From contig JAFVTX010000024.1 in assembly GCA_017503015.1 (NCBI GenBank), positions 1 through 41,379 of the forward strand: a DNA stretch of 41,379 nt, given 5' to 3'. Position 1 is the stretch's first letter. Each line of letters opens with the position of its first letter. Source of the stretch: Fibrobacter sp. Its GTDB lineage: Bacteria > Fibrobacterota > Fibrobacteria > Fibrobacterales > Fibrobacteraceae. Under the pieces are notes generated by a model that made no database searches, had not been told where the DNA came from, and saw only the letters and a program-made list of their open reading frames with translations. The position numbers were made by a program, and so were the translations under genes. This document shows positions 22,944 through 32,081 of this stretch, piece by piece.

Positions 22944-23438
22944 TTACGAGTTCTGTGGCTGATTTCCGGAATTATGGTTCCTGGAACTCTGTAGCTTTTC
23001 AGCGCAGGGCTTACTTTGTCTTAAAATTTTCACCAGGGCGCTGGGAGAAAGGCCAAAAGCCTTAGCTGCTTCCTTGGTGTCACCGTTTTTTTGAGCCATG
23101 CGGTCAAAGACGTGGGCCACGAACAGGGGGAAAAGAGGGTTACTTGTTTGAATATGCCCGTTGCTTCCGGGAAAGGGCATTTCGGGCTCTTGGGGTGCTT
23201 CTCGCACCTTGAGGGCAAGTGCCATCTGCATGCGGTGCAGAGCGTGGACCTTATTTTCCTTGGCGGATCTGCCTTCGGAGGATTTGATTTCTAAATTGTA
23301 TTCCCGTAAGGTCAGCTGCACTCCGGTGTTGGTCTTGTTCCTGTGTTGCCCGCCAGGACCGGACCCCTGGAAACCTTTCAGGGTACAGACGCCTAGCAGC
23401 TGGTCCAGGCTCATTTTTAAGTAGGTATCGCGATGCAT
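22944..23438 (-). CDS. Stand-alone GGQ-domain release-factor-like protein
   Basis: A 164-residue protein with the peptidyl-tRNA hydrolase core of class I release factors: FQGSGPGGQHRNKTNTGVQL, with GGQ at residues 29-31. The stop-codon recognition domains of RF1/RF2 are absent, so it is of the ArfB/YaeJ/PrfH-like type and may rescue stalled ribosomes. The arginine-rich tail of ArfB is not obvious. Instead residues about 105-145 look helical (FVAHVFDRMAQKNGDTKEAA, then KAFGLSPSALVKIL), somewhat like a helix-turn-helix. Its ATG lies in the palindrome ATGCAT shared with the divergent lipoprotein start at 23433. Confidence 0.82.
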   Translation of the reverse strand: MHRDTYLKMSLDQLLGVCTLKGFQGSGPGGQHRNKTNTGVQLTLREYNLEIKSSEGRSAKENKVHALHRMQMALALKVREAPQEPEMPFPGSNGHIQTSNPLFPLFVAHVFDRMAQKNGDTKEAAKAFGLSPSALVKILRQSKPCAEKLQSSRNHNSGNQPQNS

Positions 23439-23606
23439 ATCTTGAAAGATAAAATTCTTGTGCCCCTCGCTATGGTTGTTTTCTTGCTATTAACCGCCTG
23501 TGCAGGCTCTGCGGACAACGCTTCCCAGGGTGGAGTTCTTCAAAATACGCCCCAAAATGCCCAGGCAAAGGACGCCCAATACCAGGAGCGAGTCCAGGAC
23601 AAGTAG
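23433..23606 (+). pseudogene. Lipoprotein N-terminal part, ended by in-frame TAG
   Basis: The frame starts at ATG 23433 and encodes a clear lipoprotein signal: Lys5 and Lys7, a hydrophobic core (ILVPLAMVVFLLL) and lipobox LTAC with Cys23. A Gln/Ala-rich linker follows. The frame meets TAG at 23604-23606 and continues without another stop to 24167. The downstream part has no export signal of its own, so the two pieces were surely one gene of 245 codons. This is a nonsense mutation, a sequence error or a readthrough site. The first five bases of the ORF overlap the divergent GGQ gene. Confidence 0.8.
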
Positions 23607-24167
23607 GCCCTTTTGGAAACTATGTTCCAGAACTTTCTGGACGGTATCCGGAACGGTGCTTCTGCCGAAGTCCTGTACGGCTATCTGACAGACACTTCGG
23701 AATACTGGCTGGACACTCTTGAAACACATGCCCGCCGCTACGACGCTGAGGCTCTGGATACATGCCAGTTTTATGAGGCCTACGCCATTATTCTTTACCG
23801 CCTTTATGAGCGGGAACACCTCTGGGAAACCGAAGATGACCGCATGCTCTTTATGCTGCTCAGCAAGAGCGGTATGCTGGACCGGTTCCTGCGTCTGCAA
23901 CTTGGACCCATGAAGGTGAAAAACGACCGGGGAAGTATAGGCCTTGCCAAAAGCCCCGACGTGCCCATTATGCTATTTGTCTGGGATGACCGGACCTGGA
24001 AACTGGACCTGCCGGCAACGCTCCCTCTGATTACCAAGGGAATCGAATCTATCGCGGTCAAGAAGAACTGGACCAACCGCAAGCTGGCCCTTTACTGGAT
24101 AGAGAAGGAATACCACATGACCTACTCCAGGCTGGACGATTCCCTGTTGGAGCCTATCGGTTTTTAG
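23607..24167 (+). CDS. Hypothetical protein, continuation of the lipoprotein gene beyond the TAG
   Basis: About 186 codons in the same frame as the lipoprotein signal at 23433. If translated alone it could begin at TTG 23613 or ATG 23622; neither has a ribosome site. The protein is helical, with aromatic residues (YGYLTDTSEYWLDTLETHAR) and a C-terminal WIEKEYHMTYSRLDDSLLEP. I do not recognise the family. It is followed 15 bp later by another exported hypothetical protein, so the two may be an envelope operon. Confidence 0.6.
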   Translation, partial: ALLETMFQNFLDGIRNGASAEVLYGYLTDTSEYWLDTLETHARRYDAEALDTCQFYEAYAIILYRLYEREHLWETEDDRMLFMLLSKSGMLDRFLRLQLGPMKVKNDRGSIGLAKSPDVPIMLFVWDDRTWKLDLPATLPLITKGIESIAVKKNWTNRKLALYWIEKEYHMTYSRLDDSLLEPIGF

Positions 24168-24182
24168 TTAGACGAATACACG

Positions 24183-25034
24183 ATGCGTAGTATCTGCAAG
24201 TGCTTGTTTTTGCTCCTGTGTTTTGGCGTCTGCGCCATTGCCGCTCCAGCCAAGATTTCGGGAGCGGTAGAGTCCAAGACTCCTTTTAGTGGCGACCGCC
24301 TTTTTGCTGTTCTGGATTCTGTAGGTGGCACAGGAACCTGGATGGAATGGGACAGCACCGGCGTAAAAGACCCTTCTATCATGTCGGTGGTTGCACCTTC
24401 CATGAAAACCTCCCAGAAACCCCAGATGGTGTGGGTAATATCTGAGCGGGAAAAGCCCTTGATGGCTATCCTTTTTTCGAAGGGAGCGGGGGAGGTTCTT
24501 GTGTTCTATGAGCTTTCCGCCCTAGATGCCAAACCGGAGCCTCTGAAGCTGAATCCGGAACCGGACCCGCGGGTGTTTCTCCGGGACTACCAGCAGGAAT
24601 CCCCGACGGTCTTTGTCCACCTGGACAAGCCCAACCTGAAAATTTCCATATCCGAAAAACTGATCCGCTTTACCTACGAAAAGGCGGACAAGACGGCGCT
24701 CCGTTACGACAGAGATTTTGCCAAGAAAACCTTTGTAGAAAAACGTTCCGAAGTCCGCAGTTACATGGACTATTTTCGTTATGAATATGCCCTGATGCTT
24801 CGGGCCTTTGTCCAGTCTGTTCGGGGGCTGTTCAACTGGCAACCTTGGCATTGGTACATGGATTCCTGGAATCATTCCGCCTTTATCAAGGCCGATGAAC
24901 TGGAAGCCATTCTTTCGAAAGGATTTCCACCGGAATATGTCACGATTTTCAAGACCAGGGCCGCTACCGGCGAGACGGTGGAATTTCGGGTGAACGGCAA
25001 CGGCTTCTTTGAAATGGATATTTTCGCCCCGTAG
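24183..25034 (+). CDS. Secreted hypothetical protein
   Basis: A 283-residue protein with a Sec signal peptide (LFLLLCFGVCAIAAPAK, cleavage near residue 20). The mature part has a beta-rich first half and an aromatic C-terminal half (RGLFNWQPWHWYMDSWNHSA). No catalytic motif or family is recognised. It lies between the interrupted lipoprotein and porU on the same strand. A link to type IX secretion is possible from position only. No good ribosome site is seen. Confidence 0.6.
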   Translation: MRSICKCLFLLLCFGVCAIAAPAKISGAVESKTPFSGDRLFAVLDSVGGTGTWMEWDSTGVKDPSIMSVVAPSMKTSQKPQMVWVISEREKPLMAILFSKGAGEVLVFYELSALDAKPEPLKLNPEPDPRVFLRDYQQESPTVFVHLDKPNLKISISEKLIRFTYEKADKTALRYDRDFAKKTFVEKRSEVRSYMDYFRYEYALMLRAFVQSVRGLFNWQPWHWYMDSWNHSAFIKADELEAILSKGFPPEYVTIFKTRAATGETVEFRVNGNGFFEMDIFAP

Positions 25035-25058
25035 CCAGCTATTTTGTATTTTAGAGAT

Positions 25059-27968
25059 ATGCGCTTGAAATGGTCCACATTGTTGCTTGCCCTGGGTTGC
25101 CTTGCGGTTTCTCATGTGGACGCATCTGTGACCTTTATTGCCCAATTTGCGGTTGGCGACAAGAATGTGGCCACCTTTAGCGAAGACGGTCTCTATGCGG
25201 TGGATTTTGCAACAATCAAGAAGGCCCTGGTCCAAAACAAGAGGCAGGGAGACCTGGATGGGATCCAGGTCGAAAAACTCTGCGTTTATGCGGCTTCTCC
25301 CGACACCTTGAGCGACAAGGTGCCCGAAAAGGCCAAGCTAGAACCGGACCAGACCTTTGAAATCCCTATTGAGGTTCGGGACAAGAACGGAAACGGAATC
25401 TTCGACGCTGGTGATACGCTCCTTTTTGTGGGGTACGGCACTTCTATTTGGAAACGCGTCGATTCAGAGGACCCGTCCTTTGAAACGGGCAAGATGGACT
25501 ATTTCCATTCACATTCGCCCTATTCCTTTTACCAGAACTTTCAGCTGGGCTGGAAATCCTCTGGCAAGGGACTTCGTTTGAATGATTACTTGAAGGAACC
25601 ATCCGGTACGGGCAAGAGCATAGAATGGATGCGCTACGTCCGCGCAGAAAAAGAGGCCATCTTGCGGGATACCTATTATGGTCGTGAAGGAGACTGGGAA
25701 AGTTCTTCGGGTAGAGAATGGTTTTGGCTTTGGCATAGCCGTCTAGATTCTACCACCTATTCCAATTCGGACCTGATTCAGCCGCAGGTTCAAGATTTAC
25801 CTGGGCGAATTGCAGGTGGAAAGGAATTTTTGGGGGTGTCCTACTTCCCGTATAGATCTCTTTGGCGCTCTTTTGCCGAAAAGTCCGATGATCAGAAGCA
25901 CGATTTGGAAATGTCCGGCAAGTCTTATCAGGAACGGATGGACGGTATTGATTTTTCCATGACGGTGAATGGAAAGAAGCTACCCCGCAGTACCGCCACC
26001 TTGATGCCGGGCAATACTTTCCGTCTGGGTAATCCAGGGCTCAAGGACAAGGGAAATAGTTTCGGCTTGACGATGTTGCCTAACGATTACCAGTTCGACC
26101 GTTTTGACGGTTACACGCTGGCCTATCAGTGGACTCCTGCGGTGGATTCGGCAGAATGGCTTTTGCCGGGCCGAGTATCTGGAGTTATACAGATTCCCGT
26201 TGGCAAAGATGCAAATCTTCAGATTATGAAGTTTGTAAACTATCGTCAGGTGGGCCTTTTGCAGGTGAAAAATGGCGTTGCAAAGGATAGTGTAGCTGCT
26301 TCCGATGATGTGCGTTATCTGGTCTACAAGAAAAATGTGTACAGAAACACTATTAGCGTGGTTAGCCAAGCTGTTAAACCCGCAGGGGTGATTTCGGATA
26401 TTTCTAGAATTGATTCCCGTACGGAATATTTGATCGTATCGCCGTCGGAATTTCTGAATGGAGCCGTAGCCCTAGGAAAATTCCGCTCCGATGGCTCTGC
26501 CGTGACCACAATCCCGACTGCGGTTGTTGCCGTAGAAGATATTTATGCAAGGTATACAGGTGGCGCTGTTTCTCCTGTGGCAATCCGCAATTATGTAGCC
26601 TATGCGAAGACCCGTTGCAATAAACTCAAATATGTGCTTCTCTTGGGTTCGGGTCATTATGATTACCGCGGAATCAATACGAAGTTAGGTCCGAACTATA
26701 TGCCGCCCTATGAAAAGGAATCTGTGGCAAGCGATGATTTCTTTGGTGCACTTGAACCTGGTGAACTAATTTTGTACGGTAAGTACGATTTAGATGTTGC
26801 CGTAGGTCGTTTACCGGTATCCACAGAACAGGAATTGTCCCACTACATGGACAAGGTCCGGGAATACGAGAAGGTGGGACTCTATGACCATTCGGAATGG
26901 CGGTCCACGCTGCTGCTCGCTGCCGATGACGCACTCAACAGCCATATCGTAGACTATACGGAACATACCAAACTGCAAGAAATGCTTGCAAGGTCTATCG
27001 ATAGTATGGCCACGGCCCAGAATCACCAGTGGAATCTGAAAAAGATGTATTTGCTGGATTACCCGGCCGATGCCTCGGGACAAAAAAAGGATGCGGTTGA
27101 TGATTTTGTCAACATGATAAACCAAGGCGCATTGATTACGGCCTATTTTGGTCATGGATCCATGACGGATTGGGCTTCTGAAGGACTTTTGAAGCCTAGC
27201 TACATAGCGAAAATTTCCAACAGGGGCCGCCTGACTATTCTCAATTCTTTTTCTTGTACCGTGGGACGTTTTGATATGGGCAATGCGCGATCCTTATCCG
27301 AAGAATTCGTGCTGGCATCTCAAGTAGGCTCTATTGCGTCTATTGGTTCGACAAGAGAAACTTTTGCCGATTACAACGAGGCTTTCGGAAGAGCTTTTTT
27401 GATTTCTTTGCTAAAGACGGAGGGCATGCTTGTCGGAGACGCGTATCGGAATGCTAAAAATTCTGTAGGGGTGGGCTATAGCCGCCAGCGATACAATAAC
27501 GAACTCTATGTGTTGATAGGGGAGCCTGTTCTTCAGATGCCCAAGGCCTCTATGAAGGTTTCTTTCGATGCCGAAATGGATACCCTGAAGGCCCTTGACA
27601 AGGTAAGGCTTTCTGGAAATGTTTCGGGCATGAAAGATGGGTATATTGGAATATCTTTGCATGAGGGCAAGCGAAGCAAGAGGCTGTTTAATGGTCTAGA
27701 CGTAGAAGATGATACTGTGGATGTTGTTTTTGATGGTTCTCTGATACATTCCCAGGTTGTCCCCGTTCGTGGAGGCCGGTTTGAAACGGAATTTATTTCT
27801 CCAAGAAAACTTTCTTTTGGCGATACTGCCGCCCGGTTGAGCGCCTGGGCATATTCGTCGAAGGATAGGGCCGTTGGTAGATTCTTGAAAAGGAAAATCT
27901 TGATTTCTGGAGTTTCTACATTTGCGGATTCTATCCATGATCAGACGCCACCTTCGATACAGGTGTAG
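25059..27968 (+). CDS. porU: Type IX secretion sortase-like C25 peptidase PorU, interrupted by TAG
   Basis: 969 codons up to an in-frame TAG. ATG 25059 opens a signal peptide (LLLALGCLAVSHVDA); the TTG further upstream is less likely. The C25 gingipain-type peptidase has LGSGHYDYRG, the catalytic His699 in AYFGHGSMTDW and the catalytic Cys733 in LNSFSCTVGRFD, then SIGSTRETFADYNEAFGRAF and LIGEPVLQMP. PorU cuts the C-terminal signal of T9SS cargo at the cell surface and attaches A-LPS in Porphyromonas gingivalis. The frame resumes after the TAG for another 214 codons with the typical PorU C-terminus. A TATTTT box lies 6 nt from the ATG. Confidence 0.88.
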   Translation: MRLKWSTLLLALGCLAVSHVDASVTFIAQFAVGDKNVATFSEDGLYAVDFATIKKALVQNKRQGDLDGIQVEKLCVYAASPDTLSDKVPEKAKLEPDQTFEIPIEVRDKNGNGIFDAGDTLLFVGYGTSIWKRVDSEDPSFETGKMDYFHSHSPYSFYQNFQLGWKSSGKGLRLNDYLKEPSGTGKSIEWMRYVRAEKEAILRDTYYGREGDWESSSGREWFWLWHSRLDSTTYSNSDLIQPQVQDLPGRIAGGKEFLGVSYFPYRSLWRSFAEKSDDQKHDLEMSGKSYQERMDGIDFSMTVNGKKLPRSTATLMPGNTFRLGNPGLKDKGNSFGLTMLPNDYQFDRFDGYTLAYQWTPAVDSAEWLLPGRVSGVIQIPVGKDANLQIMKFVNYRQVGLLQVKNGVAKDSVAASDDVRYLVYKKNVYRNTISVVSQAVKPAGVISDISRIDSRTEYLIVSPSEFLNGAVALGKFRSDGSAVTTIPTAVVAVEDIYARYTGGAVSPVAIRNYVAYAKTRCNKLKYVLLLGSGHYDYRGINTKLGPNYMPPYEKESVASDDFFGALEPGELILYGKYDLDVAVGRLPVSTEQELSHYMDKVREYEKVGLYDHSEWRSTLLLAADDALNSHIVDYTEHTKLQEMLARSIDSMATAQNHQWNLKKMYLLDYPADASGQKKDAVDDFVNMINQGALITAYFGHGSMTDWASEGLLKPSYIAKISNRGRLTILNSFSCTVGRFDMGNARSLSEEFVLASQVGSIASIGSTRETFADYNEAFGRAFLISLLKTEGMLVGDAYRNAKNSVGVGYSRQRYNNELYVLIGEPVLQMPKASMKVSFDAEMDTLKALDKVRLSGNVSGMKDGYIGISLHEGKRSKRLFNGLDVEDDTVDVVFDGSLIHSQVVPVRGGRFETEFISPRKLSFGDTAARLSAWAYSSKDRAVGRFLKRKILISGVSTFADSIHDQTPPSIQV

Positions 27969-28613
27969 ACTTGTTACAGCGGAGGAATCAACACCTCCTT
28001 TGCCGATGGGGAATCTGTAAAAATGCAGTTCCCGGCATGCCTTCAGGTGACCATCGAGGATTCTACCGCCATTGATTTCCGAGAACAACCCGACGAAGGA
28101 ATTAGTTTTGAAATTGTGGGTGTGGAACACCCGTACCACCCGGGACCGTTTTTGGAGCAGACTTCCAAGAAGGTTGTGGTCCGCAAGACTTTCAATGCCG
28201 AAAACTACCCCGAAGGCAAATACGTTTTCAAGGTCCGCGCACAAGATGTCTTGGGCAATGTGGCCACCAAGACCTTGAATCTGGAACTGACCGAAGAAAT
28301 GAAGTCCGGCTTGCAGGATGTTTTCAACGTGCCGAATCCCATGGGCAAGAAGGGAACGACTTTCTATTTCAAGAACCTGGCCGTGAACCGCAATTCTATG
28401 GTGAACATCTTTATATACAACCAGAATGGTCGCTTGGTGAAGGTCATCAAAAATGCTGTCTCGGGCATGACCCGCTGGGATGGTCGTGACAATCACGGAA
28501 GGCTTTTGGCCAACGGGCTATACCATTATGTGGTCCGTAGCGAAGTGGAGGCTTCGGACGGGTTCAAAAAGAAAACTTGGACAAAGAAACAAAAATTGCT
28601 TATATCGAGGTAA
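27969..28613 (+). pseudogene. porU: PorU C-terminal part beyond the in-frame TAG
   Basis: The same frame as porU continues directly after TAG (27966-27968) with coding-like sequence (CYSGGINTSFADGESVKMQF). It ends in a FlgD-like/CTD beta-sandwich: VFNVPNPMGKKGTTFYFKN, then WDGRDNHGRLLANGLYHYVV. PorU homologues carry such a domain at the C-terminus, so the full gene would be 25059-28613 (about 1184 codons). If not read through, the encoded PorU lacks it. An internal ATG (28023) has no useful ribosome site. Confidence 0.8.
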
Positions 28614-28615
28614 AA

Positions 28616-29467
28616 ATGGATTTGCGTGAAAAACCTGGAAAGATTCAGAAACTGCTGGAATTGTTTTTGAGATTCCGCCTGATTTCGGTGGTACTTCTTG
28701 TTGTTTTGTCCGTGACTTTTGTGGCGACCCGCTGGCAGGCCATGGTCTCAATGCCGGTGGCCTCTTCGGAATCTTTGGGAATGTGGCTGGCTGAACATGG
28801 GGGCTTTGCATCTCTGTGGCAGGGAGGCCAGTATCTCGCCGTTTCTGCGGTGGCCATGGTGGTTCTGCTGTTTGTGTTTGCAGGAATCCGAGGCGGTATT
28901 GCAGGTTTGTTTGGCCTCAGTGCCATGGTTTTTGCCTTGTACGCCCTGGACGGTGCCGAAAGCATGGTCCTGATATTCTATGGAGCGTTTGCCGGCGTGG
29001 CTCTGCTCCTTTTGCTCTTTGCAAAACTGGGCGTTGCCAATGTGCTTTTCCCCTTTGCCTTTAGCTGGGTGCTATTGACTGCAATGGTAGCATTGCTGCC
29101 GGCCTTTGCTCCAGCCTTTTTGCTATGGGCGGTTTTCTCCGCTGTCGGCTTTGCATCGGTCTTGGCTTTGGCCCTTGTCTCTGCAAAACATCTTGCCGAA
29201 GGGACTCCCCAGGCAGGAGCCCTGATCCGTAGCGGCAAAAAGCTGTTGATTCCGGTGACGGTGTCGTCCCTTTTGGCGGTGGCGGCTTTGTTGTTCGATA
29301 TGGACAAGTCGGCTGTTTCTGGCGTGAAGGTGGCGGAAGCAGCCGTGTCGTGGCTTGCCTTCAACTTGTGGTTCTACGTGTTCCTGTTTCCGGTGGTTTC
29401 TTTTGCACCGTGGGAAAGGCTCCGTTCCAAGGAACGCAAAGTCAAGCTGAAAGAAAAGAAGAAGTAG
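28616..29467 (+). CDS. Polytopic membrane protein coupled to porU
   Basis: A 283-residue inner-membrane protein with about seven hydrophobic segments and a strongly basic C-terminus (LRSKERKVKLKEKKK), which points to a cytoplasmic tail. No family is recognised. Its ATG at 28616 comes right after the porU stop, and the ribosome site GAGG overlaps the porU end, so it is likely translationally coupled to porU. Its TAG is one base from the convergent M23 peptidase stop. A role with the T9SS is suggested by position only. Confidence 0.7.
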   Translation: MDLREKPGKIQKLLELFLRFRLISVVLLVVLSVTFVATRWQAMVSMPVASSESLGMWLAEHGGFASLWQGGQYLAVSAVAMVVLLFVFAGIRGGIAGLFGLSAMVFALYALDGAESMVLIFYGAFAGVALLLLLFAKLGVANVLFPFAFSWVLLTAMVALLPAFAPAFLLWAVFSAVGFASVLALALVSAKHLAEGTPQAGALIRSGKKLLIPVTVSSLLAVAALLFDMDKSAVSGVKVAEAAVSWLAFNLWFYVFLFPVVSFAPWERLRSKERKVKLKEKKK

Positions 29468-29468
29468 T

Positions 29469-30488
29469 CTACGAGCAGCGCAGCACCTGGCCCGGACGAA
29501 TCATGTTGCTCTTGAGGCCGTTGAGCTGTTTGAGCCTGCGTATAGAAATTCCGTATTTTCGGGCAATCTTTCCGAGGCAGTCCCCGCGGCGCACCTTGTA
29601 GTAGCGGTGTTTGGAAAGTTCTTTTTGGTAAAAGTCCTCGTTTTGCTGTAGGGCGACGGGATCAATCTCAGTTTGCTCCCACCTGAATTTTCCGTTTTCG
29701 AAATCAAAGACGGTGGAAGGGTCTATGTAGAGCCCGTTGTAGCGCATCTCGAAATGCAGGTGCGCCCCGAAGGAACGTCCCGTGTTGCCGCCTATACCGA
29801 TGGTGTCGCCTGCTTGCAGGGTGTCGCCGACTTTTACATTCCATTTGGACAAGTGGGCGTACAGCGTGGTGAGGCCGTTCCCGTGGTCGAGAATCACGTA
29901 CTTGCCGTAGCCCCTGCGGCGGCCCTGGTTCCGGGTCTTGACCACCTTGCCTGCAAAGGCGGCTACGATGGTGCGGTCTTCGCCGTGGCAGAGTCCCAAA
30001 TCTACTCCACGGTGCATGCGGTAGGTTCGTATGCCGTAGGGCCCCGAGATGCGCCTGCTTTCGGAGGGCATGGCCGAGGCGGTCATATCCAGGAACAGGG
30101 ACTTGACGGCGGAGTCCGCACTGGCGGAATCGGCGGCGGCCATGTCGGCGGCCAGTTCGGCGTCGGCTTCTTCGCTTTCGGCTCCCGATTCGCTTTCGGC
30201 GCCATCTTCGCCTTCTACGGCTAGGGAGTCGGCTTCGGCAACATCTTCTGTTTCCAGGTTTTCGGCCTCTATTTCGGCCAGCTCCTGCTGGATAAGCTTT
30301 TCGGCTTCGGTGAGTTCGACTGCACCAGCTGGATTTTCGGCGGTTTCGGCAGGAACTTCGCTTAAGGATTCAGCGCCTGATTCTATAGGCTGCTCTACCA
30401 GGGGCACGGCATTTTCGGCCATGCCATCTTCCTTTGCCCAGAGGCAGAGGGGGAGGGAGAACAGGAGTATGGAAACGACGCGTTTCAT
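29469..30488 (-). CDS. M23 (LytM-type) metallopeptidase with C-terminal LysM
   Basis: A 339-residue exported protein with signal peptide (LLFSLPLCLWAKE). Residues about 25-130 are a low-complexity Glu/Ala/Ser region. The M23 domain has the zinc ligands His159 and Asp163 in MHRGVDLG and the catalytic HLHFEMR motif, so an active endopeptidase is expected. A LysM domain for glycan binding ends the protein (YYKVRRGDCLGKIARKYGIS, then LNGLKSNMIRPGQVL). It probably cuts peptidoglycan cross-links or activates amidases. A TATATT box lies 12 nt upstream of the ATG. Confidence 0.92.
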   Translation of the reverse strand: MKRVVSILLFSLPLCLWAKEDGMAENAVPLVEQPIESGAESLSEVPAETAENPAGAVELTEAEKLIQQELAEIEAENLETEDVAEADSLAVEGEDGAESESGAESEEADAELAADMAAADSASADSAVKSLFLDMTASAMPSESRRISGPYGIRTYRMHRGVDLGLCHGEDRTIVAAFAGKVVKTRNQGRRRGYGKYVILDHGNGLTTLYAHLSKWNVKVGDTLQAGDTIGIGGNTGRSFGAHLHFEMRYNGLYIDPSTVFDFENGKFRWEQTEIDPVALQQNEDFYQKELSKHRYYKVRRGDCLGKIARKYGISIRRLKQLNGLKSNMIRPGQVLRCS

Positions 30489-30514
30489 AGATGTGTGGCT
30501 AATATAGAATAATT

Positions 30515-30630
30515 GTTAGGGATTAGAGGGGGTAGGATTTTAAACGAAAGAACTCCCGCCTGTTTGCCCTCGTTATGGTTGTTTTTTTGCTATTTCCTGT
30601 TTACTAACCACTAACCACTAGCCACTATTT
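30515..30630. repeat. Heptamer-repeat element upstream of glyQS
   Basis: The right arm 30603-30630 is ACTAACC, ACTAACC, ACTAGCC, ACTATTT. The left arm 30515-30535 is GTTAGGG, ATTAGAG, GGGGTAG, loosely complementary. The unpaired centre contains a stretch (30565-30594) nearly identical to the lipoprotein signal coding region at 23461-23491. Confidence 0.75.
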
Positions 30631-30632
30631 TC

Positions 30633-30640
30633 TAAATTTG
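30633..30640 (+). promoter_or_regulatory. Candidate glyQS promoter box TAAATTTG
   Basis: TAAATTTG lies 28 nt before the glyQS ATG and fits TAnnTTTG. A ribosome site (AAAAGGA) lies between. The box directly follows the heptamer array. Confidence 0.6.
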
Positions 30641-30668
30641 CTCGCATAAAAATCAAAAGGACTCTAAA

Positions 30669-32081
30669 ATGGCAAAGAAAGTTCAGGATGCCCTCAAGGA
30701 CATCATCTCCCTCTGCAAGCGCCGCGGTTTCATTTTCCCCGGCTCCGAAATTTACGACGGCCTCGCCAACACTTGGGACTACGGTCCGTATGGCGTGGAA
30801 CTGAAGCGCAACATCAAGAACCTCTGGTGGAAGAAGTTCGTGACCAGCCGCCAGGACGTGCTCGGTCTCGACAGCTCTATTCTCTTGAACCCCCGCGTTT
30901 GGAAGGCCTCTGGCCACGTGGGCAACTTCTCTGACCCGCTGGTGGACTGCCTCGCTTGCCACGAACGTTTCCGTGCCGACCAACTTTTGGAAGACAAGCT
31001 CGGCGAAGGCTGCTGCGCCGGCAAGAACTTTGACGAAGTCCACCAGATGATGATGGACAACAAGATTGAATGCCCGACCTGCGGCAAGACCGACTGGACC
31101 AAGCCCCGCGCATTCAACCTGATGTTCCAGACTGAAATCGGCGTGATCGAAGGCGAAGGCAACAAGGTCTACCTCCGTCCGGAAACCGCTCAGGGTATTT
31201 TCGTTGACTTCAAGAACATTGTCGATAACGTCCGCCCGCGCATCCCGTTCGGTGTGGGCCAGATTGGTAAGAGCTTCCGTAACGAAATCACTCCGGGTAA
31301 CTTCATCTTCCGTACCCGCGAATTCGAACAGATGGAACTGGAATTTTTCTGCGAACCGGGCACCGAACTGGAATGGTACAACTTCTGGCGCAAGTATTGC
31401 TTCGACTGGTTGGTGAACGACCTGGGCGTGAACAAGGAAAAGCTCCGCCTCCGCGAACATGCCAAGGAAGAACTTTCTCACTACTCCAACGGTACCACCG
31501 ACATCGAATACGAATTCCCGTTCGGTTGGGGCGAACTCTGGGGTATCGCAAGCCGTACGAACTACGACTTGACGCAGCACCAGAACGAATCCAAGGTCAA
31601 GCAGGAATACATTGACCCGGTGCAGAACAAGCGCTATATTCCGTACGTGGTGGAACCGTCCCTCGGTGTGGAACGCCTGCTGTTGGTGCTCCTCTGCGAC
31701 GCCTACGACGTTGAAAAGCTCGAAAACGACGAACGTACCGTGCTCCATTTCGACCCGAAGATTGCTCCGGTGAAGGTTGCCGTTCTCCCGCTGGTGAAGA
31801 AGGGCCAGGTGAAGGCCAAGGCCGAAGAGCTCTACCAGAAGCTCCTGAACCGCTGGAACGTGGAATACGACGAAACCCAGTCCATCGGCAAGCGCTACCG
31901 CCGTCAGGACGAACTCGGCACGCCGTTCTGCGTGACTGTGGACTTCGACACGGTGGGCGAGGGTGAATCCGATCCGGCAAAGCTCGGCTTCGTGACGGTT
32001 CGCGAACGCGACTCCATGAAGCAGGAACTGGTGAAGATCGACGAACTCGAAGCTTACCTGTCCGCAAAGCTCGGCTGTTAA
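30669..32081 (+). CDS. glyQS: Glycyl-tRNA synthetase (single-chain, class II)
   Basis: A 470-residue cytosolic enzyme that charges tRNA-Gly. It is the homodimeric type shared with eukaryotes, not the alpha2beta2 GlyQ/GlyS pair. Motifs include RRGFIFPGSEIYDGLANTWD, YGPYGVELKRNIKNLWW, FNLMFQTEIG, YLRPETAQGIFVDFKN, the class II motif 2 GKSFRNEITPGNFIFRTREF, motif 3 EPSLGVERLLLVLLCDAY, and the C-terminal anticodon-binding fold. Codon choice is strongly biased (almost all GAA, CTC and AAG type codons), as expected for a highly expressed gene. Confidence 0.96.
   Translation: MAKKVQDALKDIISLCKRRGFIFPGSEIYDGLANTWDYGPYGVELKRNIKNLWWKKFVTSRQDVLGLDSSILLNPRVWKASGHVGNFSDPLVDCLACHERFRADQLLEDKLGEGCCAGKNFDEVHQMMMDNKIECPTCGKTDWTKPRAFNLMFQTEIGVIEGEGNKVYLRPETAQGIFVDFKNIVDNVRPRIPFGVGQIGKSFRNEITPGNFIFRTREFEQMELEFFCEPGTELEWYNFWRKYCFDWLVNDLGVNKEKLRLREHAKEELSHYSNGTTDIEYEFPFGWGELWGIASRTNYDLTQHQNESKVKQEYIDPVQNKRYIPYVVEPSLGVERLLLVLLCDAYDVEKLENDERTVLHFDPKIAPVKVAVLPLVKKGQVKAKAEELYQKLLNRWNVEYDETQSIGKRYRRQDELGTPFCVTVDFDTVGEGESDPAKLGFVTVRERDSMKQELVKIDELEAYLSAKLGC

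Follow-up and report, generated by a model that had tools for sequence, protein, structure and literature searches.

In a Fibrobacter genome, the gene for the T9SS sortase PorU carries an in-frame TAG at codon 970, and the question arises whether this stop is decoded as an amino acid, acts as a switch, entered the sequence as an error, or has disabled the gene. The window, i.e., the whole stretch of DNA analyzed (41,379 nucleotides), is one complete contig (C24) of an assembly of 74 contigs and 2.96 Mb. The closest named relatives of the genome are Fibrobacter metagenome genomes, e.g., RUG831 (G022) and UBA4375. The coordinates of the features are collected in Table 1.

Table 1. Interrupted genes and related features; positions without a contig prefix refer to the window.
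Feature	Position	Strand	Basis or state in relatives
porU (T9SS C25 sortase), TAG-interrupted at codon 970	25059..28613	+	PF01364 and NF033707 matches, read-through frame
Premature TAG in porU	27966..27968	+	Sense codon in 36/36 Fibrobacter relatives read, Gln in 34/36
214 sense codons 3' of the TAG: Ig-like and T9SS C-terminal segment	27969..28610	+	Profile matches; G022 comparison
Lipoprotein-like conserved ORF, TAG-interrupted at codon 58	23433..24167	+	Comparison with relatives
Second premature TAG	23604..23606	+	CAG or CAA (Gln) in 9/9 relatives read
Private TAG, codon 107 of a 141-aa protein (L085)	C50:58315 in C50:58211-58633	minus	Gln in UBA4223
Internal TAA	C6:26369		Tyr in UBA4223
Private in-frame TGA in a large surface-protein gene (L205)	C46:69445	plus	Open in relative G066
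Transposase-like gene split by an in-frame TGA (L203)	C46:33391-35349	minus	
Decayed pilin-like gene (L270), intact tandem copy adjoining	C41:46362-46607	minus	

The earlier note had described the gene as porU and the TAG as followed by an open frame of 214 codons encoding a FlgD-like C-terminal part, and both the stop and the identity of the gene were confirmed. Codons are numbered from the ATG at 25059, and the end stop of the read-through frame lies at 28611-28613. The Peptidase_C25 profile (PF01364) matched the product before the TAG (residues 457-827, E=2.8e-72). The product also matched the T9SS_sortase profile NF033707, the part behind the TAG corresponding to profile positions 955-1093 of 1095 and matching FlgD_ig and CHU_C as well. 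With the parts before and after the stop combined, the C25 domain, the N-terminal region and the CTD-like segment of the PorU family (NF033707) are all matched; unlike in that family, the predicted product stops before the C-terminal segment. NF033707 scores were 334 bits before the TAG and 67 bits after it, at a cut-off of 420 bits, so that an uninterrupted full-length match including the C-terminal segment was not obtained above this value. Judged from these matches, the locus holds a PorU allele whose frame is interrupted. It is the single C25 peptidase gene of the genome, and the search for a second porU copy, suggested in the earlier note, returned none in the genome.

The stop is private to this genome. 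Among 29 congeners, the codon aligned to position 970 was never a stop; it encoded Gln in 27 genomes, and Arg and Lys once each. All 11 porU loci from named genomes, seven of which represent further genomes, carried CAG or CAA (Gln), with CAG in the nearest relatives RUG831 and UBA4375. The 214 codons behind the TAG differed from those of the sister genome RUG831 by one amino acid, and own-branch changes in this part were synonymous rather than nonsynonymous in a ratio of 8 to 1, a bias that mainly mirrors the time preceding the mutation.

As this conserved frame runs on directly after the stop, it could be imagined that ribosomes read through the TAG in a programmed manner or that the TAG turns porU on and off. 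Since the stop occurs in no relative, there is no conserved device around the TAG, and phase variation is not known to work by substitution of one base; such a mechanism is regarded as extremely unlikely. An internal restart at the ATG at 28023 (196-aa ORF) was also considered and rejected. As this ORF is devoid of a signal region, its product would not provide a periplasmic substitute for the lost segment.

A further TAG within 4.4 kb, mentioned in the earlier note, was located as well, 4362 bases upstream of the porU stop, in a 244-aa lipoprotein-like ORF; both frames are open in relatives. The terminal TAG of this ORF (24165-24167) stands at the place where the frame also ends in 4/4 relatives compared. 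Two further observations concern the neighborhood. A 164-aa GGQ-type release-factor homologue (22944-23438, minus strand), ArfB/PrfH-like although below the family cut-offs, was also present in the relatives searched and adjoins porU where the stretch is syntenic. Just downstream of porU, at 29470-32081, identity to several relatives climbs to 94-97%, after about 80% before this point, a step that would fit a more recent exchange of this segment.

The frequency of internal stops was determined by an orthologue scan of 1.19 Mb of the Fibrobacter genome against 1.16 Mb of UBA4223 (G062), covering about 40% of the genome, with genes called by coding score. Coding-score scans of the genome's own sequence were used for leads only; most of what they returned were gene junctions, and the porU stop escaped them. 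In 433 orthologues comprising 153,188 aligned residues, well-conserved positions were interrupted by four internal stops (three TAG and one TAA). The remaining matches fell at gene starts, gene ends, a lysine run or a low-scoring ORF. The three TAGs (23604, 27966 and C50:58315) are all private and all at Gln positions; for the last, 17/17 other Fibrobacter genomes have no stop. The reverse scan of UBA4223 yielded two clear interruptions, one by TGA and one by TAG, together with a TAG close to a C-terminus and two more matches in a low-scoring ORF. Frameshifts were absent from the orthologues of both genomes (433 here, 422 in UBA4223). The claim that two such TAGs are more than random decay would produce was not borne out, as the stop frequency (4/433) did not differ from that of the sister genome UBA4223 (2/422; p=0.69), and genes are interrupted by TAA and TGA as well.

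The substitution spectrum points in the same direction. Own-branch changes around porU comprised 72 transitions and 19 transversions, a spectrum predicting TAG, TAA and TGA for 55, 24 and 21% of nonsense changes, respectively, compared with 3, 1 and 1 seen; CAG>TAG alone accounts for 24% of the expected nonsense changes. The chance that all three transition-type stops are CAG>TAG is 0.07, and the chance that two of the five stop events in the sampled 1.19 Mb lie no more than 4.4 kb apart is about 7%. The restriction of the TAGs to Gln positions and their closeness are mild oddities, assessed in hindsight. Local hypermutation or C>T damage was rejected as a cause, own-branch changes in 22990-30600 being even and free of C>T bias (16 C>T, 22 G>A, 19 T>C and 15 A>G).

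The main rival explanation, rated as rather unlikely, is that the porU TAG is a base miscalled in the consensus or comes from a minority strain in the assembly, and that most of the living population carries a sense codon. It is consistent with the sense codon found in every relative and would explain the other private stops too; the 74 contigs and the tRNAs Ile-GAT and Ala-TGC, not found in the assembly, are features met in short-read or metagenome assemblies. It is opposed by the lack of frameshifts in the 433 orthologues and by the own-branch substitutions around porU, which are evenly spread and resemble normal evolution. Base quality therefore seems good. The change probably arose in the living population rather than as a base error.

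Suppression or recoding of TAG as Gln, by which full-length PorU would be made, is suggested by the replacement of Gln in 3/3 TAGs within conserved and otherwise intact orthologues. Genetic code 15, in which TAG is read as Gln, occurs in crAss-like phages (PMC9523058), and the TAGs found here, standing where relatives carry Gln, resemble that code. They differ from it in their very small number and in the state of the decoding machinery, which is of the standard kind. The search for a suppressor tRNA(CUA), likewise suggested in the earlier note, was negative, as none of the assembly's 43 tRNA matches showed a CUA anticodon (ARAGORN); the single partial tRNA gene carries the anticodon tgg (UGG, Pro). 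The two tRNA-Gln genes do not differ from their UBA4223 counterparts; the copy with the CUG anticodon is likewise identical to its UBA4375 counterpart. RF1 (C46) and RF2 (C26) are intact and of full length, RF1 differing by one private D>N substitution. TAG is still a normal terminator, ending 276 of 901 called genes (about 31%), and CAG codons have been kept, with 3706 aligned compared to the three internal TAGs. The marks of a TAG=Gln code, namely TAGs throughout genes (three here in the 153,188 aligned residues), a CUA tRNA, and RF1 loss or change together with avoidance of TAG as terminator, were thus all missing from this assembly. The TAA and TGA interruptions also speak against recoding, as does the TAG at C41:46475 in the decayed pilin-like gene, where relatives have Lys or Asn. 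With no CUA tRNA found, both release factors of full length and TAG ending so many genes, a change of the genetic code in this genome is unlikely. Recoding or suppression was rejected as very unlikely, given the tRNAs found, the release factors, the use of TAG as terminator, its rarity within genes and the interruptions by other stops. The special case of an early code change, with TAG usefully read as Gln by a suppressor located outside the assembly (e.g., on a phage or plasmid missing from it) or through a near-cognate tRNA-Gln, is very unlikely indeed.

The porU TAG is probably a recent, lineage-private nonsense mutation, creating a loss-of-function allele of the sole sortase. By this explanation, a C>T transition would have converted CAG to TAG at a conserved Gln codon of the only porU gene, and translation would stop after residue 969. 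The shortened PorU would retain the N-terminal region and the C25 catalytic domain and lack the C-terminal Ig/CTD segment, the part through which PorU is exported and enters the outer-membrane attachment complex. Several points were counted against the nonsense mutation: the location of all three TAGs at Gln positions, the occurrence of two of them so close together, the 8 to 1 synonymous changes behind the stop, and the expected unfitness of a sortase-null cell in a cellulolytic niche.

The rest of the T9SS appears to have been kept. The SprA gene and the PorV-family genes are uninterrupted, and of 35 sequences matching the T9SS type A tail, which marks cargo, one contains a stop and 34 are free of stops. 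The loss of PorU, if real, would therefore be recent.

The consequence of the truncation can be considered by analogy with Porphyromonas gingivalis, whose PorU retains its own CTD (PMC11285876). When the last six PorU residues were replaced in the P. gingivalis mutant 1152sHis, PorU stayed in the periplasm and the failure of the T9SS matched that of the deletion mutant (PMC11285876). In porU mutants, cargo retains its CTD and part of it is still secreted (PMC5562754). The native PorU C-terminus is lost in both 1152sHis and the present allele; in contrast to that laboratory-made replacement of six residues, 214 codons are cut off here, and in another phylum. By this analogy, PorU shortened to 969 residues would be expected to fail as a surface sortase, its function being presumably lost. 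The suggestion that loss of the C-terminal domain could disable T9SS anchoring is accordingly upheld for P. gingivalis, where a damaged C-terminus abolishes T9SS function (PMC11285876), and would extend to Fibrobacter by analogy.

The understanding of the genetic code is left unchanged by the porU TAG, which is an event of an ordinary kind. The trio of TAGs restricted to Gln positions serves as a caution, as it looks like recoding and yet fits ordinary transition mutations. If the allele is real, it would be a naturally occurring loss of function in the only T9SS sortase of a Fibrobacter, and would be useful for asking whether cellulolytic proteins in this phylum depend on PorU for their display on the cell surface.
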